Positions 32,691-57,308 of a stretch of 64,000 bases of DNA are shown piece after piece. Within the stretch, counting starts at the first letter, position 1; each line of letters begins with the position of its first letter. The notes under the pieces are model-generated. The model searched no databases, was not told the origin of the DNA, and saw nothing but the letters and a program-made list of their open reading frames with translations. The stretch spans positions 3,642,444 to 3,706,443 of the forward strand of contig NC_089863.1 of NCBI RefSeq assembly GCF_036373705.1. Direction: 5' to 3'. The stretch is from Amia ocellicauda. Its lineage: Eukaryota > Chordata > Actinopteri > Amiiformes > Amiidae. Position numbers and translations under genes: made by a program.

Positions 32691-32712
32691 TACACATTGT
32701 TACTATTACATA

Positions 32713-34617: not shown

Positions 34618-34657
<40 letters not shown>

Positions 34658-34833: not shown

Positions 34834-34837
34834 GCAG

Positions 34838-34839
<2 letters not shown>

Positions 34840-34893
<54 letters not shown>
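34840..34893. repeat. (CTA)n microsatellite
   Basis: About 18 ACT/CTA units followed by AAT units. A shorter version is in block B at 54294-54330. Confidence 0.9.
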
Positions 34894-34913
34894 ATAATAA
34901 TAATAATACACGT

Positions 34914-35229: not shown

Positions 35230-35280
35230 ATAAACATAATGGCAACAATATGTACATGATGTAATATGTATATACGTCAC

Positions 35281-36259
35281 GGGAAGGGTAGAGCCTGTAT
35301 AACACTATTATACTGCACTTAACACAGTTACTATATCATAAGAGCATGCGTGCATGTACGTATATATTCAAGACATTGAGCTGATCAGTATATTCCACAT
35401 TAATCACACAGTTGTGCATCGAGTGGCTTCATACACCGATCAACCATAACATTATGGCCACCTGCCTAATATTGTGTAGGTCCCCCTTTTGCCGCCAAAA
35501 CAGCCCTGACCCGTCGAGGCATGGACTCCACTAGACCTCTGAAGCTGTGCTGTGGTATCTGGCACCAAGACGTCAGCAGCAGATCCTTTAAGTCCTGTAA
35601 GTTGCGAGGTGGGGCCTCCATGGGTCGGACTTGTTTGTCCAGCACATCCCACAGATGCTCGATTGGATTGATATCTGGGGAATTTGGAGGACAAGTCAGC
35701 ACCTTGAACTCGTGATTCATCAGACCAGGCCACCTTCTTCCATTCCATTGTAGGCGCTTTCGGCAGTGGACAGGGGTCAGCATGGGCACCCTGACTGGTC
35801 TGCGGCTACACAGCCCCATACGCAACAAACTGTGATGCACTGTGGTCATGAAGCCCCCAGGCACTCGCTGTGTATGAGCAGCAGCTCATTCAATACGGCA
35901 CGGCTGTCACTCCTGTCTGTGAGAGCAGCACTAGATTCACTAGACCTGGACTGGTTTGCACTGAAATCACACGTGTGACAGATTTCACACATTCACAGCA
36001 TTGAGACTCGCACTGACATACAGGCTACGGCATCGAGGACAGGAACGACAGACGTGCCGTACGGAGTGACCTGGGCTGCTTGTACAGAACCAGTACCTGG
36101 GCTAATGCAGTGAGCGTGCAGCGCTTTATGCACAACTGTGTGATTAATGTGGAATATACTGATCAGCTTAATGTCTTGAATATATACGTACATGCACGCA
36201 TGCTCTTATGATTTAATAACTGTGCAGTATAATAGTGTTATACAGGCTCTAGCCTTCCC
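35281..36259. repeat. second inverted repeat (block A)
   Basis: The left arm 35281-35419 (from GGGAAGGGTAGAGCC to GTTGTGCAT) is the reverse complement of 36128-36259. The loop between them holds the Tc1 fragment at 35434. The block B version (54757-54919 and 55448-55605) has longer arms. Confidence 0.85.
35434..35844 (-). mobile_element. Tc1-like fragment, present only in block A
   Basis: Same family as 32713. It begins after TA with CACCGATCAACCATAACA, encodes the NSPD-NPIEHLWD region on the minus strand, and stops abruptly at about 35844. Block B has about 230 bp of different sequence (54930-55163) at this place, so the fragment replaced DNA here or arrived by template switching. Confidence 0.85.
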
Positions 36260-36348
36260 TTCTCACCTCCTTCAGAACTAAATCCCTCCTTCGCTCTTTC
36301 AAACCTGCAAGGCAGTGGGAGGCGGTGACATTAAATCAGGCTATTCAA

Positions 36349-36404
36349 GTGTTTCCGGGGTTAAGGTAATTTCCCAGCAGCCTCTGGGGGAACAGTTTCA
36401 AAAC
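36349..36404. repeat. outer inverted repeat, right arm (block A)
   Basis: About 55 bp (CCCAGCAGCCTCTGGGGGAAC core) is the imperfect reverse complement of 32475-32530. Block B has the matching pair at about 52035-52095 and 55670-55725. It encloses both smaller inverted repeats and borders the 3' flank of the large exon. Confidence 0.7.
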
Positions 36405-36670
36405 TGAATGATAACTCACTGTATCGCTCTGTTATTACTAGAGAGCAATACAAATAATTTTGTTGCAGGACAAGTAAAGTGAAACCTGTTTCTCTGCAGT
36501 GGCAAGAGTGCGGACCCCCCCACCTGAACACCGGCCCTAACCGGTCACGGCTCTGTGAGGGAGGGAGGGGGCTGCGGTCGTCCTCGGGGCTCGCCAGGGT
36601 TGTGTTCTCGATCTCGGGGGCATTCGCTGACAGAATTACCCTCGGGCCCCGGCGACCCCGTGCTCGGCGC

Positions 36671-39422
36671 TCACCATAGGCTCTCGTGCTCCCACTCGGC
36701 GTAGGCCCGCAGGTGTCTGACCCAGTCGACATAATACTCGCAGCGAGGCCACAAAACTTCGACGCACTCCCAGACTAGGTGGGTGGCGGGAACGCAGTTG
36801 CTCATGTCCCCGGTCAGAGCTTTACACACCCGCTGGCCATCACAACACAGGTCTCTGATGCACACATCGTAGATGATCAAGTCCTTTAGGTGGGCGGGGG
36901 ACGGGAGGGCAGACGACATCACACAATCGCCCGCCAGCTTCACGGCAATGAGCGGGGCCCCGCCGCAGCCCGGCCGACTCCCGTTCTTCTCATGAAGCTC
37001 CTGGAGGATCTGCATCTCTTCCTCCCACGGGACAGAGCAGTTTCCAATCTTAGCGAACGTCGACGGATCCAGTTGGGACTTGAGCTCCTTGTGCAGCCGC
37101 TCGGTCTCCTGGCAGACGCGGCCCAGGGTCTCTGTCACCAGAGCCATGTGCTCCCGCAGGCTCCCGTCCTCATTCAGCACCAGGTTAGGGATGTCGCTGT
37201 CGAACTGGTGGTTGATAACATCCCGGGCAATGTTGGTGGCGGTGGTGTACGTCTCGATGAACATGTACAGCATCCGACAGGCCCGAGAGAGGTCCTGCCT
37301 TACGTGGTCCAGGGCGCTGCCCCACGCCAAAGCGATCTCGTGGTCTTGGCTGAGGGAAAAACATTTTTATTGTTTTAAATGGGGATCGTTCCATTATTTA
37401 TCCCTCCATTTGCAATCCCCGCTCGCTGGGCCGTGACCCGGGTGTCCGTCTGCGGACAGACAAGGAAACGCCCTAAAGCCAGGTCTCCCTCTCGCTGGAT
37501 GGGAGGAAGTGTGCCACCGTGCGATCCACCAGGTTTTCACTTCCCGTCTCTCAGGCTGATGTGTCCCCCTCTGTTTGAATCGCAGAGCTGGGGAACCAGA
37601 GCAGCTGCGCTCCCTTCATGTCCAGTTTACAGACACGAACACACATGACACGCATCGGTGTCGTGGTGCCCATCGTGTCCTCAATACTGCAGTGTTGTAC
37701 ATGATACACAAGACCAGAAAACTGGACTCTTAACAGGCAACAGCCCCTCCATCTCAACGATTTAAACACCGTTTTGTGCTCGACAGACTCGGAGAGCCAC
37801 TCACCCGGCAGAAACATTGTCCTCCGGGTCCTCCGGCTCCGGCGATTCTCTGCGGAGAAACACAGAAATATAGGAAAACATTCTTCTACTAATCAATAGC
37901 TGCGTAGGTGTGTGTGTTGGGGGAGGCGAGAGTGAGGGAGTGCCCCCCCAGGGCCCTGCTTTGAACAGTGCAGACTCTCACAATAAGGACTTTGATGGGA
38001 TGGAAAGAGAATGACACTAATATAGTTGGAGACACTCTTCAGATCTCTCTCATTTCCTGCAAGGCTACTGAGCTACTTGTCAGAATGATCCGCCTAATGA
38101 AAGTGCTTGTGCGCATAAACAGGGCACATGCGCAATCAACAATTTCAAAACACACCCATCAGGGAATACAATTAACTCCCGCCACCCGCCAGATACGGGT
38201 AGATTTAGCCAGTGGCGGGTAAATTTGTCAATTTTACCAGACACTTTGGCGGGTGGCCAACAAGTGTGCGGAACTCAACTTTTAGTTTCTGATAGAGTAT
38301 TTGTCGGTATGTTTCAAAATACAAATTAATTTGTTGACGTTGTAGTGTTGATATGTTAGTTGATTTGGCAAATCGCAATATCATGTTTTTTTTTAAATAT
38401 ATGGCATCTGGACAGTCTTCGGTCCAGCAGGACATATTTAATGGAGAGCAACGAAGCAGAAGTAAGGTGGTTAAGGATAATGACTTTTAATTACTTTTCA
38501 TGGTCATAATTACTGACTTATTAATTACCTGGATCAAAGTGTTTCAGAATCATAATATGACAGAAAAGGAAAGAGAAGCAAATAAAACACATGCATACAC
38601 ACAGCCAGATATTGCTCTTTCTTTTGAATTCGCTGGAACTCGAACACACAGTTATGTTGAGTGAGGTGTGGAGAGGGAAAGTCAATCGTTTAGTCAAGTA
38701 GATTGTATAAATTAGCTAGATAGGTCTTATACATTTTGTATTTCGCTGTTGTGACCGGAAAACATTGCCACAAGGACGCTAATGTTAAGGTATTTCCATT
38801 GCAGCTCACACTGCTAAACTGGCAATTGAATGAAACTGTATAAAAAATGTAAAAGAAAAACATATTGGTTGGTCAGTTACAGATGTAATGTCAAAATATT
38901 CCTTTATAAAACAAATAGTCACAGCCTTTATAGTTAATTTGAAATTGTGACGATAAAAAGTTGTGATAATGTCGGGACAATAATACAAAAGTCTGACAGG
39001 AGGTGGGTGAGAGCCACTCTGGCTATCCAGACGAATACGGCAAGGCACAGAAGCGATCTTTAAGACGATATGCTTCAAAATTCACCATTTCAAGCAAAGT
39101 AAGTAAACAATAATTACAATTGCACAATTAAGTGTATCACAGCCACATGCAGTATTTTGCTCAATACTGCAACACTGAATTAAACCTCTCTGCTGGAGAA
39201 CTGATCCATGAAAGGAAACGAAAGGCAGTGAAGAGTGAAGATGAGTGTGGAGCCCTGTTGGGTGAATTGCACAGCTCTCCCATGGGAGGACACAGCGGCA
39301 TTGTCAAAACCACAAATGCAATATTACTGGCCAGGGCTGTCAGTTCATCCTGAGAGATGGGTGTGTAGATTTGTATTTATAAAAAAGATCATGCACATCG
39401 ATGTATGTATATGTAGATGTAA

Positions 39423-39460
<38 letters not shown>

Positions 39461-42400
39461 CACGTGTTGACCGTTGTTGATTTTACATTTGGTTGAGCCT
39501 GAACAGTAACTATTATTACCTAATATATTTGATATAAAGAAAGTGCACGCAATACCGCACATCTCCTGAAGACATCAGATTTAACATATATACAGTACTG
39601 TGCAAAAGGTTTAGGCAGGTGTGAAAAAATGCTGTAAAGTAAGAATGCTTTAAAAAATAGACGTTAATAGATTATATTTATCAATTAACAAAATGCAAAG
39701 TGAGTGAACAGAAGAAAAATCTACATCAAATCCATATTTGTTGTGACCACCCTTTGCCTTCAAAACAGCATCAATTCTTCTAGGTGCACTTGCACGCAGT
39801 CAGGGATTTTGTAGGCATATCGTCAGATGTCTGATTAAACAATTATACCAAACAGGTGCTAATGATCATCAATTCAACATGTAGGTTGAAACACAATCAT
39901 TAACTGAAACAGAAACAGCTGAGTAAGAGGAATAAAACTGGGTGAGGAACAGCCAGACTCAGCTAACAAGATGAGGATGCTGAAGACAGTTTACTGTCAG
40001 ATGTCATACACCATGGCAAGACTGAGCACAGCAACAAGACACAAGGAACTTCTACTGCATCAGCAAGGTCTCTCCCAGGCAGAAATGTCAAGGCAGAACG
40101 GGGTTTCCAGATGTGCTGTCCAAGCTCTTTTGAAGAAGCACAAAGAAATGGGCAACGTTGAGGACTGTAGACGCAGTGGTCGGCCAAGGAAACTTACTGC
40201 AGCAGATGAAAGACACATCATGCTTACTTCCCTTCACAATCGGAAGATGTCCAGCAGTGCCATCAGCTCAGAACTGGCAGAAAACAGTGGGACCCTGGTA
40301 CACCCATCTACTGTCCGGAGAAGTCTTGTCAGAAGTGGCCTTCATGGAAGACTTGCGGCCAAAAAGCCATACCTCCGACATGGCAACAAGGACAAGCGAC
40401 TCAACTATGTACGAAATATTTGGCTGTAGCAGATGCAGTTTGTTGGCCGAAGGGCTGGAGAGCGGTACACGAATTAGTCTCTGCAGGCAACAGTGAAGCA
40501 TGGTGGAGGTTCCTTGCAAGTTTGGGGATGCAATTCTGCAAATGGATTTGGTCAGAATGAATGGCCTCCTCAATGCTGAGAAGTACAGGCAGATACTTAT
40601 CCATCATGCAATACCATCAGGGAGGCATCTGATTGGCCCCAAATTTATTTTGCAGCATGAAAATGACCCCAAACATACAGCGAAAGTCATTAAGAAATAT
40701 CTTCAGTGTAGAGAAGAACAAGGAGTTCTGGAAGTGATGGTTTGGCCCCCACAGAGCCCTGATCTCAACATCATCTGTCTGTCTGGGATTACATGAAGAG
40801 AGAGAAGCAACTGTGGCTGCCTAAATCCACAGATGAACTGTGGTTAGTTCGCCAAGATGTTTGGGCCAACCTACCTGCCGAGTTCCTTCAAAAACTGTGT
40901 GCAAGTGAACCTAGAAGAATTGATGCTGTTTTGAAGGCAAAGGGTGGTCACACCAAATATTGAATTGATGTAGATTTTTCTTCTGTTCACTCACTTTGCA
41001 TTTAATTAATGGATAAATAAAATCTATTAACATGTCTATTTTTTTAAAGCATTCTTACTTTACAGTATTTCTTCACACCTGCCTAAAACTATTGCACAAT
41101 ACTGTGTGTGTGTGTGTGTGAAATGTGCACTGCATAAAGATAAGCTAGATTCAGCTTGACTTCTGCGTAGTTTTTTAAGCAAATTTTAACCAAAGCTCAG
41201 TCTGTCACAACACCGGCAATGTCATCATTAACCAATTATGTTGGACGGTACTCACAATTAAAGAACCGTGACGGTATGGACCCTCCTCTCTATACGCAAC
41301 GTGACCATGAAGACTCACAAACAGTGAAAAAGCATTGCAACTGCACTGCAACAAGTCCTGAGTGCCATGGCTTTAATCTGGGATGTGTATACAGTGAGGG
41401 AAGAAAGTATTTGATCCCCTGCTGATTTTGTACGTTTGCCCACTGACAAAGAAATGATCAGTCTATAATTTTAATGGTAGGTGTATTTTAACAGTGAGAG
41501 ACAGAATAACAACAAAAAAATCCAGAAAAACACATTTCAAAAAAGTTATAAATTGATTTGCATGTTAATGAGGGAAATAAGTATTTGATCCCCTATCAAT
41601 CAGCAAGATTTCTGGCTCCCAGGTGTCTTTTATATAGGTAACGAGCTGAGATTAGGAGCACTCTCTTAAAGGGAGTGCTCCTAATCTCAGCTCGTTACCT
41701 GTATAAAATGTAACGAGCTGAGGAATCAGCCCAGAACTACACGGGAGGATCTTGTTAATGATCTCAAGGCAGCTGGGACCATCGTCACCAAGAAAACAAT
41801 CGGTAACAAACTACGCTGTGAAGGACTGAAATCCTTCAGCGCCCGCAAGGTCCCCCTGCTCAAGAAAGCACATGTACAGGCCCGTCTGAAGTTTGCCAAT
41901 GAACATCTGAATGATTCAGAGGAGAACTGGGTGAAAGTGTTGTGGTCAGATGAGACCAAAATCGAGATCTTTGGCATCAACTCAACTCACCGTGTTTGGA
42001 GGAGGAGGAATGACCCCAAGAACACCATCCCCACCGTCAAACATGGAGGTGGAAACATTATGCTTTGGTGGTGTTTTTCTGCTAAGGGGACAGGACAACT
42101 GCACCGCATCAAAGGGATGATGGACGGGGCCATGTACCGTCAAATCTTGGGTGAGAACCTCCTTCCCTCAGCCAGGGCATTGAAAATGGGTCGTGGATGG
42201 ATATTCCAGCATGACAATGACCCAAAACACACAGCCAAGGCAACAAAGGAGTGGCTCAAGAAGAAGCACATTAAGGTCCTGGAGTGGCCTAGCCAGTCTC
42301 CAGACCTTAATCCCATAGAAAATCTGTGGAGGGAGCTGAAGGTTCGAGTTGCCAAACGTCAGCCTCGAAACCTTAATGACTTGGAGAGGATCTGCAAAGA

Positions 42401-42778
42401 GGAGTGGGACAAAATCCCTCCTGAGATGTGTGCAAACCTGGTGGCCAACTACAAGAAACGTCTGACCTCTGTGATTACCAACAAGGGTTTTGCCAACAAG
42501 TACTAAGTCGAAGGGGTCAAATACTTATTTCCCTCATTAACATGCAAATCAATTTATAACTTGAAATGTGTTTTTCTGGATTTTTTTGTTGTTATTCTGT
42601 CTCTCACTGTTAAAATACACCTACCATTAAAATTATAGACTGATCATTTCTTTGTCAGTGGGCAAACATACTAAATCAGCAGGGGATCAAATACTTTTTC
42701 CCTCACTGTACCTGTGTGTATATGTATTAAATGAGTACAGAAACAGCAGACTTACTCAGAGCTGTCGTGCTCTCCTCC
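36671..42778 (-). CDS. unknown rapidly diverging gene, copy A (three visible exons)
   Basis: Minus-strand exons: 42778-42756 (23 bp), 37849-37805 (45 bp) and 37349-36671 (679 bp, TGA at 36671-36673). Junctions are GT-AG (GTAAGT, GTGAGT; acceptors CTGTGCAG, CTCCGCAG, CCCTCAG) and phases join exactly. The two short exons give an acidic segment (GGEHDSSE, then [15 protein letters not shown]). The large exon gives about 225 mostly helical residues: [39 protein letters not shown], and a C-terminal tryptophan- and cysteine-rich part. I do not recognise the family. An acidic head followed by amphipathic helices would fit a four-helix cytokine, but that is only an idea. No start exon is visible upstream in this block. 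The terminal TGA overlaps a possible donor (CTATG then GTGAGC), so a further exon cannot be excluded. Exon 3 differs far more from copy B than the introns do. Confidence 0.6.
39014..39400 (+). pseudogene. integrase-like (GIN/KRBA2-type) fragment, block A
   Basis: A partial copy of the segment at 60065-60450. It keeps the end of the first exon ([16 protein letters not shown]) with a GTAAGT donor, and a second exon with [19 protein letters not shown], the zinc-binding HHCC region of a Gypsy-type integrase. The expected following YYWPG sits in another frame, so the copy is frameshifted; block B shares this shift. The start and the later exons are lost here. Confidence 0.65.
39425..39458. repeat. 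(GT)n microsatellite
   Basis: About 16 GT units. Block B has only four at this place. Confidence 0.9.
39593..41104 (+). mobile_element. Tc1-like transposon, full length but inactive
   Basis: A 1.5-kb element with inverted ends (CAGTACTGTGCAAAAGGTTT at the start; the end reads CAGTATTGTGCAATAGTTTT on the other strand). The transposase starts near 40012 with an intact paired-like DNA-binding region ([29 protein letters not shown]). From about 40427 stops and frameshifts break the DDE domain, although its end ([19 protein letters not shown]) is still readable at about 40870. It is absent from the matching site in block B, so it inserted after the duplication or was lost there. Confidence 0.9.
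41392..42708 (+). mobile_element. Tc1-like transposon, internally deleted
   Basis: TA-flanked, 1,317 bp, with long inverted ends starting CAGTGAGGGAAGAAAGTATT. A continuous frame from about 41718 to the TAA at 42504 gives the linker and a complete-looking DDE domain ([28 protein letters not shown]). The N-terminal helix-turn-helix region is missing and the first 300 bp hold a 60-bp hairpin at 41638-41699. Block B has the empty site at about 61310. It cannot bind its own ends, but the long open frame suggests a young insertion. Confidence 0.92.
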
Positions 42779-42832
42779 CTGCACAGATACAATGGCCCAG
42801 CGGCGGCTGCAGGCGTTGCTGGGAGTTGCGTG

Positions 42833-42840
42833 TGACGTCA
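42833..42840. promoter_or_regulatory. CRE palindrome upstream of the gene A microexon
   Basis: TGACGTCA, the full cAMP-response element, with a second half-like GATGACGTC at 42854-42862. It is conserved at 61428 in block B and lies 55 bp upstream of the microexon on the gene strand. Binding is inferred from the motif only. Confidence 0.4.
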
Positions 42841-42880
42841 CAGGCGTCTGATGGATGACGTCTTCACAGACCCGGTGTAG

Positions 42881-45146
42881 ATTATAGATGTGGATGAAAA
42901 TGCTACTTCTATTTATTTTGTACAGGTAATCCATATAAACAAAATAAAACATCCCCTTGTAGTTTAAAATAAGTTATCTCGAACAGTAATCATGTTTTAT
43001 AAGCACACGGTTTATATTGATTTTACTTGCATGAAACATGTTAACCTCCCAGTTAAAGCACATTACTCATAATAAACTGTATGCGCAGTGACGTATGCAT
43101 TTTGTAATTTGTATTTTATTCAATCCAGAAAAAAGTGTCGGAAATAGCGAATCGGTGTAAAACACTTGATGAATACTGGTGTTCAGTGTATTTAAAAAAA
43201 GACAGCTATACTGAATGTAGTAAATACTTCTACAGTTCAGAGTTTGTGTCAACACTATCTTTTTAGGTATATTATTATTCATAATAATATTGATGATTAT
43301 AATCATAATTTTAATAATGGGTCAGTTTGCATACTTGCATAGTACGGAGCTCCGCACTAAACACGGATCATCTGCAGTTCTCTGCTTTCAGTTCGTTGCA
43401 ATGGACCCGTTAAGGCAAATAAATCATGCATAATAATTTAAACTTATTTGATATCGTAAAATGCTTATTCCTCTGTGTTATACCAATGTTCAGTTGCACA
43501 GCTTACATTCAGCTGTTTGGGGGTCTTCTGTGCATTTAGCAAAAACATTCCCAACACCAGATGTGTTTAAATTTTTTTATTTTGTTTTACATTTCCATAA
43601 TATTGCACACTTTGCTGTAAAGATGGCTGTTAAAGAATTAACAAAGCAGAATAACGCAGAGTGGTCCACAGGCATGCTGGCAAATGGGGGTAGTGCTCTT
43701 TCCGAAAAATATCCTGTTTTTTTATCAGTATAATCGTATATTTTCAAAATACATTGTTTCACCTCACTTTTTTTTATGACGGTTTCGAACTTGGTTATAT
43801 CCAGCCACTTTCAAGTAAGTAGCGGGCAGTATACAAATCTAATGTTTTAATTTAGATAGTGGACATCTGAGGTGTGGTTTAGTATAATAATGTTAATAAC
43901 TATAATAACAAATAACAAATCGATATATGAATTATTAGTGCAGCACACACAGGCCTCAGAGACTGAACACACACACACTGACTCGTTCATCCATCCCCCT
44001 TCACCTTCCTACGCACCCTTTACCCCATTAACCCTTTATTGGGTGCAGTGGCGTTACAGTATTCAAACATTGTCCATTTCTATCAACAAGAGGGAAAAAA
44101 AAGTGCACTTATATTATAACAGAAAGTAGAGGTCAGTATATTAGACCTGAATTTATTCCATGTCACATAAGCACTCAGTGTTTGAACTGTTACTGTGCTT
44201 TGAATGTAATATGTTGTAATTAACCTGCAATTAACAGGCAATTACAGGAACTCATGTTGGAATCGCTGCGATGGGATGACAATCCACACAGGACAAAATG
44301 GCCTTTCAAAAATGTTGTGTTGTCCAGTCTATGGACTCTGTCAAACCTTGAGTCATACAGAGGCATTGCAGACAGGTTTGATACCAGCAAATCCGCAATT
44401 TGCCCACATCTGCACTAATCCTGTACATTAATATCTCATCACCTCTCATACAAGACGCACTGGCCAACAGGTGAAGCCATTCGACACCATGACGTTGGCT
44501 TTGGAAGAGCTGGCTTCCCCAACACCCTGCGCTCAGTCAACTGACGACACATTGACAATGCACAGATACACTGCGACAGGAAACCCTTCTGTCCAATGAA
44601 TCTCACTGCCTTCTGTGACCATAAATGCCAACTCACCCATCCTGGTAGCGGGCATGATGCCCAGGGATTCAGAGTGACTGAGGTCACAAAGTCCTTCAGG
44701 AGAACCCGCAGAGAAATGTAGTCACTGCATTTGTTTAGACTGTGGGAGATACACAATCCCCTGCCCTCTGTGTGTAACCATTGTAAATAGTTATGATAAA
44801 TAAAACTGACAGACATTGTAATATTATTATTTTACTCATCAAACCTTTTATGTGGAATTAAACAGCGCTATTCACATTATCTTTTAATATTCATGTGGCA
44901 TTGCCAATCATTTACCTTACAGCTTTATTATACAGCATGGATTTCATGTTAAAATAATTGATGTAATTATTTAGTACAGCATTGCCAATGCTGCTGACGG
45001 CTTCATTGTGTGATCAGTTGTGTTCACCTGCGCTAAGAAGGTGGCAGCAGTAGTTTTCATTCTCCTCAACATGTCCCTCTTGACCTCTGCATCGTCTCGT
45101 TGTCTCACAGCCACGGCTTGACTCCCGCAGGTGCTTCTCAGAGCTG
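42881..45146. other. 2.3 kb without a supported gene
   Basis: AT-rich. The homology to block B ends at about 42880. I looked for a first exon of gene A like the one proposed for gene B and found none. A minus-strand open frame at 44439-44816 has no recognisable motifs. Confidence 0.45.
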
Positions 45147-45855
45147 CGCCGTCCAATGAGTTTTGAAGCATTTGGCTGAATCTGAGCAGATAATATAGAC
45201 CTAAACACTTCACAATTCATCCTGCTGCTTTTGTCAGCAGCCACATCATCAATAAATACAAGGGAACCAGTTCCCTTGGCAGCCATACATGCCCATGCCA
45301 TAACATGCTTCACAGATGAGGTGGTATGCTTCGGATCATGAGCAGTTCCTTCCCTTCTCCATACTCTTCTCTTCCCATCATTCTGGTACAAGTTGATCCA
45401 GAACTGTACAGGGTTCTTTAGATGCTTTTTGCAAACTGTAATCTGGTGTGATGGCATGAGAGGCAAAACGCCCCAAGAACAAGCAGGAACTAAAGACACT
45501 GCAGTGCAGGCCTGGCAGAGCATCACCAGGGAAGAAACCCAGCATCTGCTGATGTCTATGGGTTCAGACCTCAGCCAGTCATTGACTGCAAAGGATTTGC
45601 CACCAAGTATTGAAGCTCACAATTTAATTCATGATTATGTTAGTCTGTCCAAATACTTTTGAGCCCCTAAAATTGATTGGACCACCTATAAACATGGGTG
45701 TAATTCCTACAATTTGGATGTAACTCCCCTCAAATTAAAGATCAAAGTCTACATTTGATTGTTTCCTTTCAAATCCATTGTGGTGGTGTACAGAGCCAAA
45801 ATAATTACAACTGTGTCACTGTCCAAATATGTATGGCTCTAACTGTATATACACA
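45147..45855. mobile_element. rearranged Tc1-like transposon (internal inversion)
   Basis: Two pieces of one transposase family face opposite ways. On the minus strand 45147-45475 encodes the middle of the DDE domain (HQITVCKKHLKNPVQFW, MAWACMAAKGTGSL, IQPNASKLIG). On the plus strand 45476-45660 encodes the C-terminus (WQSITREETQHLLMSMG) followed by the 3' end, CCAAATATGTATGGCTCTAA at about 45822. This arrangement needs an inversion within the element or two insertions. Nothing in it is intact. Confidence 0.75.
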
Positions 45856-45883
45856 GTATACTGTATATAGCCTATATATAAGA

Positions 45884-45954
45884 ACATAAGAAAGTTTACA
45901 AACAAGAGGAAGCCATTCGACCCATCGTGTCCATTAATAACTAAGTGAACGAAG
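45884..45954 (-). mobile_element. CR1-like LINE 3' end, first part (split by hAT insertion)
   Basis: This matches the 3' tail of the element at 23838 (AAGAACATAAGAAAGTTTAC) as far as CTAAGTGAAC, where the hAT element begins. The homology resumes at 51309. Confidence 0.85.
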
Positions 45955-46735
45955 TAGGGTTAGCCGCGCAACGGCTCCGGAGCCCGGAACCAGCTCCAGA
46001 ACCCGGAGCGGAGCGGAGCCGGACAGTTTTTGTTAGTTGTGCTCTGGAGCCGGAGCAGAGCTGGAGCTGGCATTGCTGGAGCCGGAGCTGAGGTCATGGA
46101 GCTGCTCCCCTCTCTCCCCCTCCATTAAACTCTCCCAGATATTAAGTCCAGTTTTCTTGAATTAACACAATATCTAACTTCATAGATTTTGTTGTGGGGG
46201 TTATACATTAAAATCAGTTCTCACACCAGCTCTTAGTACACAATACCTTATTGGATAATGCTTTAAATTACGTGGCACAATTTAATGTTAATAGATTTTC
46301 AGTTGGGTAGTAATTCAACTACTTGATTATTATAGTTCAAGAATATTGATGAAATATCTATCTATACCAAAAACATCAATGTGGAAAAACAATGGCTCGG
46401 TCATCTAACGTGGAGAAATCTACATTTCCCCCAATTGATTCTTGACATTTGGCCCATGTAGGTTTAAAATGTCCACTTCAGATGGCTGAGCAATTTTGTA
46501 ACAAGCATTTGTTTCATACTGACAATGTTATTGGTATAGAGAAAAATTACATTCACATTCAATTGATAATTTAGTAATTAGTTGAAATTTAATCGTTGAA
46601 TATCTATTTTATATTAAATTGGGAAATCTATTTTATATTATATTGTAATCTAATGTATTACCCATTATTTTTAATTCATTGTAATTCTATGATACTTCAC
46701 TTTCTCTGTCTATTTTTCTCAGCCGGATTTGTACA

Positions 46736-47640
46736 GTCAGTTCAAGTTAACCTTTATTCATAGAGCACATTTAAAAACAACAGAAGTTGACCCAAAGTGC
46801 TTTACAGATCAAACAAACAAAATGACAGAGTAATATAAAAACAAATTAATTTAAAATTAAATATAAAAAAATTGGAATACAGCATCATAAAATGTATACA
46901 TTTCGAAATATTCAATTATGTATTCAAAAGCTACAGTGTAAAAATATGTAATAATAATAGTTAATGAAGAAGCTGACCTGACATGGAATGGGGGGCTGAG
47001 ATTAGGACCTATCACAAAAAGGCACGATCGCGCTTAGACCTATAGCAACAACTTATTAGACCCTTATTAGACCCTTAATAAAAGCTGATAAGAAGATCTA
47101 AGTACTCTGACAGGGGAATAAGGGTGTAGATCATCACTGATGTATTGGGGCGCAAGACCAGATAGTGCCTTGTAGACATAAATCAAAATTTAAAAGTCAA
47201 CCCTAAGTTTCACTGGAAGCCAGTGTAGAGATGCTAAAACAGGGGAAATGTGATCCCTCTTTCTTGACCCTATTAAAAGCCTAGCTTCCGCATTTTGAAC
47301 TAGCTGTAGGCAGGATGACGCAGTTTGGGGCAGACCAATGTGCAATGAATTGCAATAGTCTAACCTTAATGTAATAAGTGAGTCGATCACAATTTCCAAG
47401 CCTTTATAAGAAAGAAAATGTTTAATTTTCGCAATAAATCTCAAGTGGAAAAAAACTACCATTAACAACAGCACTGAGCTGCTTATTGAAAAGTAGAGAG
47501 GAGTCTAAGATCACTCAAGACTGCTCACATGATCCTGTACGTTCAACGACAGAGGACCTAACTGAGCAACCAAACCAGGTCAGGAGGACATGGAGGAACC
47601 TAGAATCAGAACTTCAGTTTTGGTTTCACTTAATTGTAAG
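46736..47640 (-). mobile_element. L2/Rex-like LINE fragment inside the hAT element
   Basis: The minus strand encodes the C-terminal reverse-transcriptase region of an L2-like LINE (LRLDYCNSLHIGLPQ, QLVQNAEARLL, VLASLHWLPVK). The 3' end near 46736 has TTTATTCATAGAGCACATTT. It is truncated and inactive. Confidence 0.8.
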
Positions 47641-48669
47641 AAATTATTTGCCGGCCAATGTTTAATATCTTTGAAACAATTTAGGGCGTTCTCAGATGAA
47701 CAATTATTACCTACATTCATTTGTACTAATAACTCTGTACCTACGAGGGTTAAAGGCAAGTGTCGTATATGGAATTACTCAGCAGAAACTGGACATGCAG
47801 AAAATAGCACCAAAGTTAGTACAGAAATAAAACAAGTTAAGAAAACCAAAGGCGCTTGGAAGAAAAAATACATGTATTGTCCATATTTTTTAAGTACTCC
47901 AAGTAGATTTTTGACACTGAATAAATGAAACTTCAAAGTCTTATGAACGGGTGTAAAAAGGAAAACTTTACATCTGACCCCCAGAACAAAACTTACAGCC
48001 ATTTAAATAAGACTTCCATAAACCGCAGTGACTATATGCAAACGAACAGGGAAACATATATTTTGAATATTGTCACTTTAGTCATTACTTAGACACATTA
48101 CTTGGCGTTTTCTTCATTGGCTTCACAGTGCCGTCCACACACTCAGCATCTGTGATTTGATTTTCAAGGGCCGGGGTTACATTTCTGTGTCACATTCATT
48201 ATTTCTACTTTGTGTTTGGTTTTGTTTCTGATCCGCGTCTTTGTGCGCTCTGTGCGCTGTCACACACATGCAAAGCTAAACGCAGCCCATCGTTCACAGA
48301 TGTGCCCATATTCTGTCTCGTCGGAAAGCTACAGCTCTGCCCTGTACAAGAGTGACAGATATACACACATTTCTTTGATAGCCTCTAGCCACCACTACTT
48401 ATACGGAATTGGCCATATCTGGTCTCATTCAAAGCTAATTATGTTAATTATGTTAATTAAGGTATGAAACCTGTTTTTCATTTTTTGAGTGGTCAGTTCA
48501 TTAGTCATTGAATCAGCACCTCCTCAGCGCTCTCCACTCATCACCGCTGAGGCACAGGGACAGCAAACTGAAGAAAGTTACACAGGTGTTGCCAGTTGTT
48601 ACCAACATTTACATCTGAGCATGTTAAGGTACAACCACTTCACCAGAAGTAAACCCTTCAGGTTCCCTG

Positions 48670-49428
48670 GACTAGGATAACCCAGCGCCGTCAGTGCGGG
48701 ATGGTGGATCCTCCGCAAGTCACCGACACAATGCCAGATCGTTTGTCTTCAGTTTATTTTTGCAACAGCACACAGTTTTATACATGTCAGAAGTCAGAGT
48801 TGCGGGGCAGGACATATCATATACAGATCGAGTTGCTAGGCAGACATGGAATGTGTCCAATATTATAACCCCTAACACACTCGACAGTTTCGGTTGACAT
48901 ATCTGCACGGTTTGCCTAGCAGTAGATGACGTGGGACGCTATCTTATTGCTGGTTTGTCTGAAGAGCAGCATGTATATTGTTTATGTTGTCAGCTCTGAG
49001 CTGTTGCTCAAAATATAATATAAATATAGGGAGATTGTGGTTTGACATTTCCAAGATAGAGTCAAGGGAAAGGCCATGGGTTCAAGTGTCTAGACTTTCA
49101 CAGAAATAGTTATGCGCGAGTATGTGATTTATGTTATTTCTGCAATAATGACACGTCAGCCCCCCTTGCCACAGCAACGTTTCCAGTGAGATATGACAAT
49201 GTTAACTCTGCAACTTCTGTTAAAGGCTAATCCTACAATAAGAATACAATACAATGAGTTACATGGTTACAATAGGTTAAATAATCAGTATGCCTACCAA
49301 ACTTAATTATCCACAACAGTTAGTGTATGAATATGTTATATAAAAATAATTGTACTCTGTTCTCCCAACATGCAGAGTATTATACAGTGGGTATATACAA
49401 TACATAGGGGGCAATTTTACCCCAACAG
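48670..49428 (-). mobile_element. LTR of an endogenous retrovirus
   Basis: On the minus strand the LTR starts TGTTGGGG at 49428. It has a TATAAAA box near 48783 and an AATAAA signal near 48758 shortly after, the R-region layout of retroviral LTRs. Its 3' end is not certain and lies around 48670-48720. Env-like sequence precedes it on the same strand, which makes it the 3' LTR. Confidence 0.6.
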
Positions 49429-50600
49429 TTGCCATCTTTAATGAAACATGAACATGTTACATTAATTCCATAAAATTGCGTTAGATATAAAAAGACATTT
49501 TGGACATGTTAATCACAAAGTAAGCCCTCTTGATCAGATTCTGTAAACACAGCAGTTTCCACCACCTCTGAGGCTTTATTTCCTTGTCATACGTTTGATC
49601 TTTTAGAGGCACAGTTCTCATTCCATGGTCCCAGTAGGTCATTTGAAGAAACTACTTCTTCTTGAAGTAGTATTGTCCTTCAGGGTATCCCAAAATTTGT
49701 TAATGTCTCTGGTGATTGTTCTTTCATTGTGGTCCATCGGCACTCATCAAGTGGCCGGCGAGACCGAGACGATTTCCAGTGTTCATTATGTGTTATTTCT
49801 TCATTGTTTCAGCAGTTGAGCCCGGTGGGCATCGAAACGCTTAGGGTTCAGAGCGTCCATGGATGAAGACACCAAGCGAGCCAAACATTTTTCTAAACAC
49901 GCACATATACAGGGACCAAGGCACAATAAGAGCAAAATTATAATTATGCAGGGTACAGCAACACTTGATCAACACAAAACAAATAGAGAAAAATGAATAT
50001 TCCAAGAATAAAAGCAGTCCTTGGGCCTATAAGAGCACCAAGGTATCCTAGGGAGCCACTGATCCAGCTCCAGAGAGACCACTACGGGGTCTGGTGAATT
50101 TTAGTTACTTAGTTACTTCTCTACGAATGTGATCTGTAAGATCATTAATCTGTTCAGAGTTGTCAGGTATATAGGTTCAACATTCTTTACCAATGAGCGC
50201 ACAAACCCTCCACTTGCTATCAGAGAGAAATCTTTTAAAACAACTTAGTGCATATGGCAACCATTTCAGCTGTTACATTATCAATAGAGTCAGCAGTTTT
50301 ATCAGACATCTTCAACTGTGAGAGGAACGGGGATCATGATATATTCAAGTCTTTTAGTAAACTGATAGGACGTTCGGTGTTCTCTCTCATCAGGGAGGTG
50401 GAGCGGCTGTCATTTGTGTCCCGCCGTGGGACAGTGGTTAGTTGTTGGCATTCAATCGAGATGGATTGCTCCAGTAGAGCTGTCAGAGCAATGATCAGAA
50501 GGGTGAGGCCGACCCCAGCCATCATCAGGATTCAGACTGCAAACTGTGCCATGAGCATCTGAGTGAGAAATCTTTCAATCACAAAAGACATCTGGAAAGA
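49429..50600 (-). pseudogene. degraded endogenous retrovirus envelope remnant
   Basis: The minus strand between about 50570 and 49850 reads as a broken transmembrane-envelope segment: a hydrophobic stretch near 50500 and a later cluster of hydrophobic frames near 50000. It is interrupted by several stops and frame changes, then a non-coding stretch leads into the LTR at 49428. No gag, pol or 5' LTR is visible. The remnant cannot produce an envelope protein and is annotated only as a relic. Confidence 0.5.
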
Positions 50601-50639
50601 CATCACTCAAATGTTTATAAAAAACACTTCAGGAGCAAG

Positions 50640-50790
50640 AGAAAAGAGCAAAACGGCAACCTCAGCTAAAATATAGAATTATATCTGGTTCAAAGATTTC
50701 ACCAGAAAAACATGATGTTGACAAAGCTATACTGGAATGGATTGCCCTCGCTCTACAACCATTTCCTTCAGTAGAATCACCTGCATTCAG
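50640..50790 (+). pseudogene. hAT transposase exon remnant
   Basis: An open plus-strand stretch ends DKAILEWIALALQPF and SVESPAFR, then a good donor, CAG followed by GTAAGAG. This matches the region just after the zinc finger in vertebrate hAT transposases (pattern PFSVVENxxFR). The BED finger upstream and the catalytic and dimerisation parts downstream are missing or replaced by later insertions, so the host element is non-autonomous. Confidence 0.65.
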
Positions 50791-51308
50791 GTAAGAGAAT
50801 TTGTAAATTCTTAATGTGTTAAATATTTATGTATGTAGTACAAATACATTGTTATATGGAAAGAAATATTGAGTTGTGTTTATCCATTAATTTGGATTAA
50901 TCTTTTATCCAGTGACTTAGGGTTACAATTAGTTAAATGTACATATACATTGTGGTGCCAATTTTCACAGCTGGCTTTTTAACAAATATTATTCTTGTTT
51001 AGTTTTTCTTTATTGTACTGTGTTCTACTTATTCATGTTTCCATTGTTAAAAAGATGTTTGTTATATACATTTTGGTTTTGTTAAAGTTATTTACACCAA
51101 AGTGTAGGGAAAGAGAAGACAAAACACTGCAGCTTTAAAACCAGATTTCTATATTCTTATCATCTTGGAAAAGCAACAACTTTATAAAACGTTATCAATA
51201 ATGATCCCATTCTAGTTTGAATTGTTATTTGTGGCTCCAGAGCTGGAGCTGAACCTCTGGAGCCACTCTGGACCCGGAGCCAGCAAACCCGGAGCACTGC
51301 CAGCCCTA

Positions 51309-51655
51309 GAACCAAGGATCCTATCCAGTCTATTTTTAAAAGTTTCCAAATTGTCTGTTCAGCCACATCGCTGGGGAGTTTGTTCAGATTGTGACGCCTC
51401 TCTGTGTGAAGAAGTGTCTCCTGTTTTCTGTCTTGAATGCCTTGAAGCCCAATTTCCATTTGTGTCCCGGGTGCGTGTGTCCCTGCTGATCTGGAAAAGC
51501 TCCTCTGGTTTGATGTGGTCAATGCCTTTCATGATTTTGAAGACTTGGATCAAGTCCCCACATAGTCTCCTCTGTTCCAGGGTGAAAAGGTACAGGTCCT
51601 CAGTCTCTCAGTAGGACTTTCCCTTCAGACCTGGAATAAGTCTGGTTGCTATATA
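51309..51655 (-). mobile_element. CR1-like LINE, second part (split by hAT insertion)
   Basis: This continues the CR1 fragment from 45954. It matches 23913-24250, including GTTTGTTCAGATTGTGACGC, and stops near 51655. Confidence 0.85.
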
Positions 51656-52276
51656 ATTAATGTATGATAATAACTACAGTGAACCTAGGATACGACCTTG
51701 CGGAAGTCCACATTTTATTTCACTGGCTGTCGACAACCACTTGCTCCCTCTCTGTTAAGCAAGACTTCATCCACAGTATAGAGAGCTTATGGAAATCTAA
51801 AATTCCATGTATAAACCATGAACTAAATGAACTTCTGTAAATAATTACTATCTTAAACAAATGAAGATGCCAAAAAAAGGAAAGAAAATTAACATAATCT
51901 GGCTCCAACACTTTTATTAACAGAGATTAATGAGTAACTAACAATGTCACTCGATAAATTAGTCTTTTAGACTCCAGTCTTGCGTTTCTGAAGTCATTTC
52001 CATTCAGTACCACTGTTGCCATCAGTTACCTTTCAATTCCAAACCGTTCCCCCAGAGGGTGCTGGAAAATTACCTTTACCCCAGAAACACTGACTGATAG
52101 GCCCCTGAATGCTGTCCGTCACTGGGCCCGGCTCCTGCCCCAGCTCAAGCACACGGCACTGGGGAACAACGCCCTTTTCAACGCCACACTGAGAGCCTCA
52201 TCGCTTCTGTGTTCTCAGCTCTACACGCGTGATGTGTATACATATTACATCATGTACACATTGTTACTATTACATA

Positions 52277-53128
52277 CACCGATCAGCCATAACATTATGG
52301 CCACCTGCCTAATACTGTGTAGGTCCCCCTTTGCTGCCAAAACAGCCCTGACCCGTCGAGGCATGGACTCCACTAGACCTCTGAAGGTGTGCTGTGGTAT
52401 CTGGCACCAAGACGTTAGCAGCAGATCCTTTAAGTCCTGTAAGTTGCGAGGTGGGGCCTCCATGGATCGGACTTGTTTGTCCGGCACATCCCACAGATGC
52501 TCGATTGGATTGAGATCTGGGGAATTTGGAGGCCAAATCAACACCTTGAACTCGTGATTCGTCCAGTTCTGATGCTCACGTGCCCATTGTAGGCGCTTTT
52601 GGCAGTGGACAGGGGTCAGCATGGGCACCCTGACTGGTCTGCGGCTATGCAGCCCCATACGCAACAAACTGCGATGCACTGTGTGTTCTGACACCTTTCT
52701 ATCAGAACCAGCATTCACTTTTTCAGCAATTTGAGCTACAGTAGCTCGTCTGTTGGATCGGACCACACGGGCCAGCCTTCGCTCCCCACGTGCATCAATG
52801 AGCCTTGGCCGCCCATGACCCTGTCGCCGATTCACTGCTTTTCCTTCCTTGGACCACTTTTGATAGGTACTGACCACTGCAGACCAGGAACACCCCACAA
52901 GAGCTGCAGTTTTGGAGATGCTCTGACCCTTATTCGTCTAGCCATCACAATTTGGTCTCTCAGATCCTCACGCTGCCCATTTTTCCTGCTTCTAACACAT
53001 CAACTTTGAGGACAAAATGTTCACTTGCTGCCTAATATATCCCACCCACTGACAGGTGCTATGATAACGAGATTATCAGTGTTATTCACTTCACCTGTCA
53101 GTGCTCATAATGTTATGGCTGATCAGTG
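52277..53128 (-). mobile_element. Tc1-like transposon, defective (block B)
   Basis: Orthologous to the insertion at 32713, TA-flanked. The minus strand reads from [14 protein letters not shown] (helix-turn-helix region) through RPRLIDARGERRL to [13 protein letters not shown]. The central DDE part is deleted, and a further 33 bp (the TEQRKKVAWSDE region) is missing compared with block A. Confidence 0.9.
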
Positions 53129-53129
53129 T

Positions 53130-53264
53130 ATGTGTCTCAGTATACAGTGTATTTGTCTCAGCATCTCATTATATACTGTATTTCTCTCAGCTTCTCAGTA
53201 TATAGTGTATTAGTCTTCGTATATAGTGTATACGTCTCAGCATCTCGGTATATAGTGTATATGT
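53130..53264. repeat. degenerate minisatellite
   Basis: Four to five units of about 27-36 bp on the theme GTCTCAGCATCTC followed by AGTATATAGTGTAT. A shorter version is at 33608-33697 in block A. Confidence 0.75.
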
Positions 53265-54290
53265 CTCACTGTGTTTGTGATCTCGGTCTGGAAACAGGCA
53301 GCTAGTAAAAAGGTGAAATACAGGGCTCTAGGTTTCACTCACCACACCTCCTGCACGGCCAGAACTGGTGAGTAACCATGCGGCGAGTGTGTGTGTCTGT
53401 GTGAGTGTGTTTGGGTGCTGATGTTGATTTTTGTGCAACCCTGAGTTAGATACTGGCGCTTCTCTGCTGTAGCTGCCGCCCGTGTGCTGAGGCCTCGGGT
53501 CTGCGCTGCTCAGAGCGTGTGTCCCGGCCTGCGTGTCCCTGCCCATTGGGGCTGGTAGTCATTGACACACATTGAAAGTGTTTCAGTCGAGATCTCCACC
53601 GACGACACCCCCCTACTCTCCCCCAGAGACGGGGGGGATTTCTGGGGGGTGACTCGGCGCAGTGGAGCTCCTCAGGGTTCCCTGGCCTGAGGAACCAGCC
53701 CCCCGCGCTCCAGGCGGTGGTCATAGCCAGATGGTCCCAGGAGGACTGCAGCTCTGTGAGGAGATCCAGGAGCAACAGGAGGGCCCTAGAAGGCTGCCGT
53801 GTCTGCGGTCCTCTCTCGAACATGGAGTGCGGGATCTGGTTCCTCAGGCCAGGGAACCCCTAGGAGCTCCACTGCGCCGAGTCACCCCCCAGAAGTCTCT
53901 GGGGGAGAGTCGTCGTGTGTCGGTGACTACCAGCCCCGATAGGCAGGGACACGCAGGCCGGGACACACACGCTCTGAGCAGCGCAGACCCGAGGCCTTGG
54001 CACACGGGCGGCAGCTACAGCAGAGAGGCGCCGATGTCTAGCTCAGGGTTGCACAAAAATCAACACCAGCACCCACACACACGCACACGCACACGCACAC
54101 ACACGCGCACGCACGCACACGCACACGCACACGCACACTCGCCGCATGGTTACTCACCGGTTCTGGCCGTGCAGGAGGTGTGGTGAGTGAAACCTAGAGC
54201 CCTGAATTTCACCAGCTTGCCTATCCGCTGTTCAAGAGTCCCAGAAGTGGCAGCCGCCTGCTTCCAGACCGGGATCACACACACGGTGAG
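53265..54290. repeat. large imperfect palindrome (block B)
   Basis: Arms of about 430-450 bp (53265-53698 and 53836-54290) surround a spacer of about 137 bp. Arms extend further inward than in block A, through CCTGGCCTGAGGAACCAG and its complement. The spacer reads LLTELQSSWDH on the minus strand, opposite to block A. A run of CA/CG repeats (54070-54140) lies in the right arm. Confidence 0.9.
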
Positions 54291-54294
54291 GCAG

Positions 54295-54329
<35 letters not shown>

Positions 54330-54358
54330 ATTATTATTATTATTATTATAATACATGT

Positions 54359-54674
54359 CAGGGGGGCCCAGCCCTGGTCCTGGAGAGCCCCAATCCACTT
54401 GATCTTATAGGTCACCCTCAATCACCAATTTCTAAACACTGGGAACACATGCGAGTAATTAATCAATTAAGCAAGTCAACCCAGGGACCTCTGCCCTCAG
54501 GAGGCTGCAGGTATTCAGATAATTGCTCCACTAGTTTCTAAAGGACTGAATTTAAACCACCTGCTTCACTGATCAGATTGAAATACTTCCAGGTGTTTGT
54601 AAATTGGTGATATGAGAGAGACCTGTGCAACCTGCTGGATAGGGGCTCTCCTGGACCAGGGCTGGACTCCCCTG
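54359..54674. mobile_element. hAT-type MITE (block B)
   Basis: Orthologous to 34914-35229, same length, with flanks ATACATGT and ATAAACAT. Confidence 0.8.
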
Positions 54675-54756
54675 ATAAACATAATGGCAACAATATGTAC
54701 ATGATGTAATATGTATATACATCACGTGTGTAGAACTGAGCACACAGAAGCGATAG

Positions 54757-55605
54757 GATTTAGTTCTGAAGGAGTGAGAAGGGAAGGCTAGAGCCTGTAT
54801 AACACTATTATACTGCACTTAACACAGTTATTAAATCATAAGAGCATGTGTGCATGTATGCATATATTCAAGACATTGAGCTGATCAGTGTATTTCACAT
54901 TAATCACACAGTTGTGCATCGAGTGGCTACATATGTACGCTGTTAAAGTCAGAACCTAGAAGATACGGTTTTGCAGTTAATAAAATAATGTTTTACTACT
55001 TCTAGTGCAGCTGGCAGTCCTCTCTGAGTCCAGTCACACACAGCAGCTCAAGTGCTCATCCTGTGCAGATGCCCGTGCTGCTCAGTGGAGCTGTGTACAT
55101 ATGACGTGTAGAACAGACGCACTGCAACACGCCACGCACCGGATCTGTGTGAAGAGCCCGGTCATTAATGAAGCCCCCAGGCACTCGCTGTGTACAAGCA
55201 GCAGCTCATTCAATACGGCACGGCTGTCACTCCTGTCTGTGAGAGCAGCACTAGATTCACTAGACCTGGACTGGTTTGCACTGAAATCACACGTGTGACA
55301 GATTTCACACATTCACAGCATTGAGACTCGCACTGACATACAGGCTACGGCATCGAGGACAGGAACGACAGACGTGCCGTACGGAGTGACCTGGGCTGCT
55401 TGTACAGAACCAGTACCTGGGCTAATGCAGTGAGCGTGCAGCGCTTTATGCACAACCGTGTGATTAATGTGGAATATACTGATCAGCTTAATGTCTTGAA
55501 TATATACGTACATGCACGCATGCTCTTATGATTTAATAACTGTGCAGTATAATAGTGTTATACAGGCTCTAGCCTTCCCTTCTCACCTCCTTCAGAACTA
55601 AATCC
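54757..55605. repeat. second inverted repeat (block B)
   Basis: The left arm 54757-54919 (GGATTTAGTTCTGAAGG to GTTGTGCAT) is the reverse complement of 55448-55605. The loop holds about 500 bp without a recognisable gene. Confidence 0.85.
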
Positions 55606-55991
55606 CTCCTTCGCTCTTTCAAACTTGCAAGGCAGTGTGAGGAGGTGACATTAAATCAGGCTATTCAAGTGTTTCCGGGGTTAAGGTAATTTCCCAGCAG
55701 CCTCTGGGGGAACGGTTTCAAAACTGAATGATAACTCACTGTATCGCTCTGTTATTACTAGATAGTAATACAAATAATTGTGTTGCAGGACAAGTAAAGT
55801 GAAACCTATGTTTCTCAGTAGTGACAAGAGTGCGGACCCCCCCACCTGAGCACCGGCCCTCAACCAGTCACGGCTCTGTGAGGGAAGGAGGGGTTGCGGT
55901 TGCCTCGGGGCTCGCCGGGGTTGTGTTCTCGATCTCGGGGGCATTTGCTGACAGAATTACCCTTGGGCCCCGGCAACCCCGCACTTGGCGC

Positions 55992-57274
55992 TCACTCCTC
56001 CAGGTTCTCTGCCACCCAGCTCATGTAGATACAGACTTGGTTGATGGTGTGGATGTAGCTGTAGCAGTACCGATCGAACACGTCGGAGGTCTCCCAGACC
56101 AGACCGGTGGCACGGATGTAGTCGCTCTCGCTCTCACCCCCGGTCAGAGCTTCGCACACCCCCTCGCCGCTATGCAGCAGGTCCTCCACGCGCAGGTCGA
56201 GGACGGTCAAGTCCTGCAGGCTGGTGGTGGCTGGGAGGGCGCTTTCCATCATGCCACTCTTCACCAGCAGCACGGCGATGAGCGGGGCGCCCATGCGGCC
56301 CGGTAGACACCTGTACTTCTGATGCACCTCCTTGAGGACCTCCATCTCTTCCTCCACTGAGACGCTGGCGTCTCCGATCTTGGAGAAGGTCGACGGATCC
56401 AGCTGGGCCTTGAGGTCCTTGTGCATTAGTATCGGCTCCTGGTAGATGGTGACCAGGTTCTCTCTGACCAGCGCCATGTGCTCCCGCAGGCTCCGGTCCA
56501 GGTGGAAGGGCAGGGGGGGGACTTCGGCATCAAAGTAGTTGTTGACAATATCCCGGGACTTGTTGGTGGTTTTGGCATATGCATCCATGGTTGTGTACAA
56601 GTACCGACAGGCCCGGGCAAGATCCTCCTTCAGCTTGTCCTGGCCATTGCTCGACGTCGGTGTGAACTCGTTGTCTTGGCTGAGGGAAAAAAAAAATATA
56701 TATATACACCCACATCACGATTAAAGAAGCAAGGGGGGATGGAGTCCGTGAGATGGCACAGAGCTTAGCGAAATGTTTTCCGATTTGTTCTTATCGTTTT
56801 AAATGGGGATCGTTCCATTATTTCACCCTCCATTTGCAATCCCCGCTCGCGAGACAGACACCCAGGTCTCCCTCTCGCTGGACGAGAGGAAGCGTGCCAC
56901 CGTGCGATCCACCGGGTTTTCACTTCCCATCTCTCGGGTTGACGTGTCACCCTCTGTTTGAATCGCAGAGCTGGGGAACCGGAGCAGCTGCGCTCCCTTT
57001 ATGTCCAGTTTACAGAACAGATCACACATGGCGGCATCAGTGTCATGGTGCCCATTGTGTCCTCAATACTGTAGTGTTGTACACGATACACAAGACCAGA
57101 AAACAGGCAACAGCCCATCCATCTCAACGATTAAAACACCGTTTTGTGCTCGACAGACTCAGAGAGCCACTCACCTGGCAGAAACATCGTCCTCCGGGTC
57201 CTCCGGCTCCGGCGATTCTCTGCGGAGAAACACAGAAATATAGGAAAACATTCTTCTACTAATCAATAGCTGCG

Positions 57275-57308
<34 letters not shown>

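Follow-up and report, generated by a model that had tools for sequence, protein, structure and literature searches.

Probable gene conversion around a strongly diverged, presumably protected last exon in bowfin DUF4533 genes

The window, by which we mean the whole analysed stretch of 64,000 nucleotides (contig C20 of the assembly, positions 3642444-3706443), comes from the bowfin, Amia ocellicauda, the species named for the full match of the protein of copy B. It contains two minus-strand genes, A and B, whose large last exons both match the Pfam family DUF4533 (PF15047). The 228 residues encoded by the last exon of B match the public protein P0001 (LOC136768072) at 100%, and the public model of B can be placed on the window in four pieces (Table 1). 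A tblastn search with P0001 residues 4-35, the first coding exon of B, returned a single match in the window, B itself, and no counterpart in A. Within the large exon alone, the frame of A begins at an internal methionine (P0004, 200 amino acids).

Copy A is unlikely to be a pseudogene. Its frame is open and its splice sites and upstream exon are intact. When we simulated A neutrally, in a crude way that allows only point changes at 0.22 per site, the frame stayed stop-free in 2.3% of 2000 runs. The A copy, and only the A copy, holds an open Tc1-like transposase frame (41685-42506; HTH_Tnp_Tc3_2, DDE_3) that is enclosed by inverted repeats at 41390-41592 and 42513-42710. Positions 58412-59484 of the B block belong to a segment that recurs at the left end of the window (1-1065) and just right of it (L018, 343-2171), at 92-94% identity.

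The two copies are conserved in an inverted way. The original prediction had described a diverged exon inside conserved surroundings, and exon-by-exon alignment confirms this together with the coordinates of both large exons, each of which runs open from splice acceptor to stop codon. The colinear intron and 3' flank, which had been judged by eye to be more than 90% identical, are 84-100% identical in 100-column windows, compared with 51-77% in the large exon (boundary windows excepted). Over the exon, A and B differ at 229 of 678 sites (66% DNA identity), against 44 of 638 on the intron side and 25 of 821 in the 3' flank; the flanks also contain indels of up to about 95 bp. The large-exon proteins had been put at about 40-45% identity, and 102 of 225 aligned codons (45%) are identical. 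Equally accurate was the claim that the adjacent 45-bp exon is nearly identical: two aligned bases differ, and the exon further upstream is also close. A 23-bp exon that had been proposed as well is absent from the public model of B.

The borders of the divergent block lie close to those of the coding exon. A three-segment likelihood fit places the breaks at A 37333-37347, where the exon starts at 37349, and at 36641-36660, where the stop codon ends at 36671; the block begins 2-16 bp inside the exon start and ends 11-30 bp past the stop codon. The log-likelihood (lnL) of this fit is -698.5 compared with -863.3 under one rate. The contrast between exon and flank is far beyond chance.

Table 1. 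Positions of exons, conserved blocks and flanks of copies A and B in the window.
Feature	Position	Strand	Details
Copy A last exon, DUF4533	36671..37349	minus	225 codons + stop; frame open; acceptor AG 37351-37350; PF15047 E 9.2e-7, 29.1 bits, profile positions 2-103 only
Copy B last exon, DUF4533	55992..56679	minus	228 codons + stop; frame open; in LOC136768072 (P0001); PF15047 E 1.4e-8, 35.1 bits, profile positions 2-170 of 225
Copy A small exon, ~45 bp	37807..37848	minus	GTGAGT donor; tblastn of P0001 residues 67-80; alignment
Copy B small exon, ~45 bp	57177..57218	minus	tblastn of P0001 residues 67-80
Copy A upstream coding exon	42755..42853	minus	tblastn of P0001 residues 34-66; frame and GTAAGT donor intact
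Copy B upstream coding exon	61350..61442	minus	tblastn of P0001 residues 36-66
Copy B first coding exon	62269..62364	minus	tblastn of P0001 residues 4-35; start codon a few bases upstream
A, putatively homogenised 5' block (introns + small exon)	37350..38065	minus	84-100% identity to B, 100-column windows
B, putatively homogenised 5' block	56680..57457	minus	window identities and likelihood breaks
B intron stretch adjoining exon, missing in A	56690..56795	minus	old-level divergence from C
A, putatively homogenised 3' flank	35848..36670	minus	outer half is a repeat element
B, putatively homogenised 3' flank	55168..55991	minus	repeat element at ~55168-55645
A outer colinear flank of duplication	32348..35433	minus	mosaic divergence
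B outer colinear flank of duplication	51912..54933	minus	mosaic divergence

Two further copies help to decide which part of the genes has an unusual age. Searching the whole assembly for the family gave 11 matches, and a genome search with protein B (10 candidates scored) gave four, namely A, B and two copies that we call C and D. Both lie on C20: C (L009, P0003) at 5.17 Mb, 1.5 Mb from A and B, and D (L012, P0002) at 5.41 Mb, amid canonical copies of the related gene SMCO3. Copy C repeats the inverted pattern. Compared with A and B in 100-column windows, its 3' flank is 87-99% identical and its small-exon region 84-93%, against 59-87% in the exon.

The original prediction had read the pattern as an accelerated, positively selected exon, a reading of which snake venom phospholipase genes are the classic case and under which exon synonymous divergence (dS) should equal intron divergence. 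Instead, by the Nei-Gojobori method (NG86), dS is 0.49 against 0.03-0.10, so that exon synonymous divergence is many times intron divergence, the very result that the prediction had named as refuting it. In full, the A-B exon has dS 0.489 and nonsynonymous divergence (dN) 0.444, a ratio (omega) of 0.91 with a bootstrap range of 0.65-1.35. Over the six pairs of A-D, NG86 omega is 0.64-0.92, and the bootstrap range passes 1 in five of them. Three of nine 25-codon windows between A and B have an omega of 1.0-1.17, so that mild local selection may act on the exon. Maximum likelihood (ML) with a purpose-written codon model of the four sequences gives an overall omega of 0.46, free-ratio values of 0.68 for A, 0.42 for B, 0.34 for C and 0.35 for D, and a free-ratio A-B dS of 0.8. 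Adding a positive-selection class (M2a over M1a) gains 0.25 log units only. Since dS is far above intron level, ML omega is 0.46 and M2a gains nothing, we reject positive selection as the driver; nothing here points to a role in venom, as a pheromone or in gametes. Some selection probably keeps the proteins of A-D distinct. What survives of the predicted interpretation is one of its listed alternatives, gene conversion of the flanks, which becomes the best explanation.

The ages of the exons agree with one another. All six exon pairs of A-D have a dS of 0.41-0.49, in a star-like pattern with four-fold differences of 23-33%, against 0.007-0.13 in the flanks of A, B and C; this is the age relation of a divergence peak protected from conversion. 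Flank divergence near the gene is 0.035-0.056 between A and B and 0.10-0.13 between C and either of them; the outer half of the 3' flank gives 0.007 and 0.031. Outside the large exon, the pieces of D are mostly 67-82% identical to A, B or C where alignable (two 30-base pieces reach 90-97%), which matches the exon dS of D broadly, because these identities exclude unalignable parts. Neutral branch lengths under free ratios are similar in all four copies (0.44 for A, 0.38 for B, 0.41 for C and 0.35 for D); one-ratio branches are 0.60, 0.36, 0.34 and 0.28, in the same order. The exons keep roughly one clock. Hence the flanks of A, B and C are too young, rather than the exon too fast.

The young flanks are themselves uneven. 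Over 27 windows of 150 bases, noncoding sequence of A and B differs at 0 to 19 positions (0-13%; chi-square 108, 26 degrees of freedom, P 5e-12), after removal of two stretches of A that have no alignment to B (34216-34409 and 35431-35847). Divergence is also lower away from the exon, with 39 differences in 438 sites within 240 bp compared with 9 in 704 at 400-800 bp (Fisher P 7e-10). Both the mosaic and the fall with distance that mark a protected divergence peak are found, the fall only within 1 kb of the exon. The intron stretch of B that adjoins the exon and is missing in A is 63-69% identical to C in the multiple alignment (best local piece 78% over 55 bp); further up from the exon, in the small-exon region, B and C are 84-91% identical.

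On the other side of the exon, the 3' flank of B has near-full-length matches in the assembly to A (97%), C (87%) and B itself, with 40 of 71 candidates scored. The outer half of this flank is a repeat. Among the candidates scored, its matches elsewhere are mostly 68-82% identical, with pieces of 91-93% beside A, B and C, and the short stretch preceding it has scattered copies at 81-93%. The repeat has no match within 10 kb around D. On contig C1 (34.72-34.82 Mb), six copies of it (L026-L031) stand every 19-21 kb with near-equal scores, a spacing that may reflect an extensive array of tandem copies. Among A, B and C the repeat differs by 0.7-3%. Had it been shared since before the exons split, it would be as diverged as they are, unless it had been rewritten. 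Constraint on the flanks can be rejected, because transposon sequence is preserved as well as the remainder.

We set the pattern against two controls. The first comprised the six canonical SMCO3 copies of the same assembly, that is 15 pairs, in which we compared the coding sequence with 400 bp on each side (global flank identities of 37-57% are here mostly unalignable sequence). The coding sequence is better conserved than both flanks in 14 pairs; the remaining one, L004-L005, is about 50% identical in coding sequence and flanks alike and too diverged to inform. This includes the youngest pair, L001-L005 (dS 0.29), whose flanks align globally at 52-55%, with one local flank piece of 207 columns at 76%. 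A weak eleventh family match (C7:8670404) was kept out of both this control and the protein tree. The second control is a tandem pair of NXPE genes in the window (7721-11358 and 14526-16623, minus strand; NXPE4_C and Neurexophilin domains), with exon dS 0.118 and dN 0.064 and surrounding windows of 78-97% (C-terminal exon only). The inverted contrast between exon and flank appears in neither control. Windows over the Neurexophilin part of the NXPE copies are mostly 97-100% identical, those over the C-terminal part 88-97%, which suggests that this pair may have undergone recent conversion too.

To explain a diverged exon in young surroundings, we propose interlocus gene conversion that keeps the surroundings alike, with the exon shielded by selection and by heterology, a reading to which we assign a probability of roughly three in four. 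A, B, C and D would be old paralogs of one DUF4533/SMCO3 subfamily. After duplication, conversion would have repeatedly overwritten introns, small exons, 3' untranslated regions and inserted repeats of A and B, and less often those of C. The last exon would have escaped, with converted versions selected against and each copy keeping its own protein. Moreover, exons that differ at a third of their bases would be poor substrates for conversion themselves, since strands so unlike each other exchange badly. Conversion tracts would then stop at the exon edges because the exon is both selected and heterologous. Exon dS (about 0.45) would give the true age of the copies, and flank divergence the time since the last conversion.

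Several points weigh against this account. From the observed relative ages, borders, mosaic and near-exon gradient we infer that conversion acts on the locus and that selection guards the exon, and the pattern comes from one assembly. At the exon edge divergence jumps from about 10% to 34%, more abruptly than a smooth decay would give, so that selection or heterology is needed in addition to conversion. The 1.5 Mb between C and the other two copies is a long distance for conversion to act often. Divergence between the flanks of A and B is back up to about 6% beyond 1 kb (57/958 and 97/1740), and because of this renewed climb the near-exon gradient is local only. A has the longest one-ratio branch (0.60) and the highest omega (0.68), and faster change in A is possible. 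The codon data are undecided among the three topologies (lnL -2573.5, -2573.0 and -2573.0). Finally, the protein tree (24 rows, with 14 of 50 database proteins used and the start of L004 untrimmed) weakly joins A with B (86/75) and both with C (92/91), as a recent duplication also predicts.

Alternatively, the duplication may be recent and the last exon of A (independently also that of B or C) may have been overwritten by an old paralog that is lost or unseen. Homology between donor and recipient would lie mainly in the exon, and the tract would for this reason end at the exon edges. Exon replacement is the main rival, though we consider it unlikely. It accounts for exon dS being as deep in every pair as it is to D. 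Moreover, most of what can be aligned between D and A or B is the exon, with only short intron and untranslated pieces besides, so an exchange bounded by the exon is conceivable. Yet at least two independent events with the same borders would be needed, and no donor turned up in the genome search with protein B (10 candidates scored), whose four matches are A-D themselves. Exons that are 65-70% alike are poor recombination substrates, which also counts against replacement, and the graded, mosaic divergence of the flanks is not what it predicts.

Less probable still is a recent duplication followed by true acceleration of the exon, in which multi-base changes under strong selection, or a locally raised mutation rate, raised the synonymous sites too. 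Much of a block of about 10 kb is common to A and B, transposon pieces included, the NG86 omega of the pair reaches 0.91, and the protein tree places A, weakly, with B; all of this would fit. However, A and B differ at 11 of the 48 four-fold sites whose amino acid is unchanged, against 44 of 638 sites in the intron (Fisher P 7e-4). Fixing the neutral path from A to B at 0.035, 0.07, 0.10 or 0.13 costs 90, 63, 50 or 40 lnL units, so that intron-level neutral divergence is costly throughout, and the four terminal branches have free-ratio omega values between 0.34 and 0.68. The neutral branch is of comparable length in D, a copy with unremarkable flanks. An assembly artefact or misplaced haplotypes, which two similar blocks 19 kb apart on one contig might bring to mind, is very improbable, since C shows the same pattern 1.5 Mb away and the flanks, which diverge by about 5% and carry insertions private to one copy, exceed ordinary allelic differences.

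The proteins themselves belong to a subfamily of their own. All four pass the DUF4533 cut-off of 28.6 bits (A 29.1, B 35.1 and, in the genome search, C 30.1 and D 47.1) and match PF15047 as vertebrate SMCO3 does; publicly C and D are named SMCO3, B is 'uncharacterized' and A (P0004) is nameless. SMCO3 is defined by a strongly hydrophobic membrane segment. The best 19-residue Kyte-Doolittle mean is 1.29 in A, 1.36 in B, 1.28 in C and an intermediate 1.85 in D, compared with 2.07-2.45 in the six canonical Amia copies. Unlike canonical SMCO3, A-D have no strongly hydrophobic segment and form a separate clade in the tree, set apart from the 20 SMCO3 rows by a 100/100 branch of about 3.4 changes per column (1.89 plus 1.5 round the midpoint root). 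By sequence, A-D are derived members of DUF4533 rather than strict SMCO3 proteins.

Canonical SMCO3 is itself present in several copies in the bowfin. Five of its six copies (L001-L006) are clustered with D at 5.36-5.43 Mb on C20 and one lies on C7. Several carp relatives have two or more SMCO3-like proteins listed, and the family may expand repeatedly in fish. Searches for relatives of B and of four family members returned Amia proteins only, with a method that sees only relatives sharing short exact words; to call the A-D subfamily bowfin-only may therefore understate its spread. Among the papers listed for SMCO3, none has it in the title or abstract, and several matches concern samarium-cobalt magnets.

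Structure prediction points to helical proteins, with uncertain models. Mean confidence (predicted local distance difference test, pLDDT) is 73.6 for B, 38.9-54.0 for four other models and 78.6 for the canonical SMCO3 protein P0005. Foldseek gave no match at E 0.001 for the models of B (best 0.22) or P0005 (best 0.059), and the A exon protein had no sequence match in the PDB at E 10. The best VIA-align Z scores (B 8.1, P0005 9.5) are within the range that helical bundles may give by common arrangement, and we draw no function from them. At a guess, the protein is soluble and helical, and each copy has partners of its own. Going further, one could imagine a bowfin-specific, soluble, SMCO3-derived set of distinct recognition or partner-binding variants, in which the exon is a swappable or protected cassette and the gene bodies are re-copied, so that regulation stays the same and specificity differs; we consider such a set unlikely.

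An open frame at 63340-63717 has a GDSL-lipase/OSK-like match and could, at a guess, be part of a retroelement.

Three known systems resemble the bowfin case in part. Exon 5 of the red and green opsins, together with the divergence-peak model of Innan, provides both theory and a case of a conversion-protected exon: one exon is diverged, the flanking introns are little diverged, conversion homogenises the rest and selection keeps the exon different (PMC3924837). The bowfin peak differs in that it comprises an entire coding exon of 680 bp with 34% divergence and edges near the splice site and the stop codon, is shared by three loci that lie as much as 1.5 Mb from one another, and is known from sequence alone. 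GOT1p1 and GOT1p2 of the copepod Tigriopus likewise keep islands of high divergence despite apparent gene conversion; there several populations were studied, whereas the bowfin case consists of one genome and an older outgroup paralog (PMC3728101). Low intron divergence with fast-changing coding sequence is also found in the small serum protein array of the habu, where two pairs have intron KN of 0.0649 and 0.0488 and KA/KS of 1.739 and 1.536, that is above 1, unlike the bowfin exon, whose omega is not above 1 and whose dS is many times intron divergence (PMC6609765). The kind of pattern is thus known from opsin exon 5, and the bowfin is an extreme case of it in an unstudied subfamily.

What we observe in the bowfin illustrates that rejuvenated flanks can mimic extreme positive selection in duplicates, and that dating such pairs by their introns can be off several-fold to ten-fold. 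With its unusually clean edges, and with the less disturbed D as a clock, the locus is well suited as a natural test of the limits that selection and heterology set to gene conversion. It also draws attention to an unstudied DUF4533 subfamily, here in the bowfin only, that is without a membrane segment and is kept as several distinct proteins.

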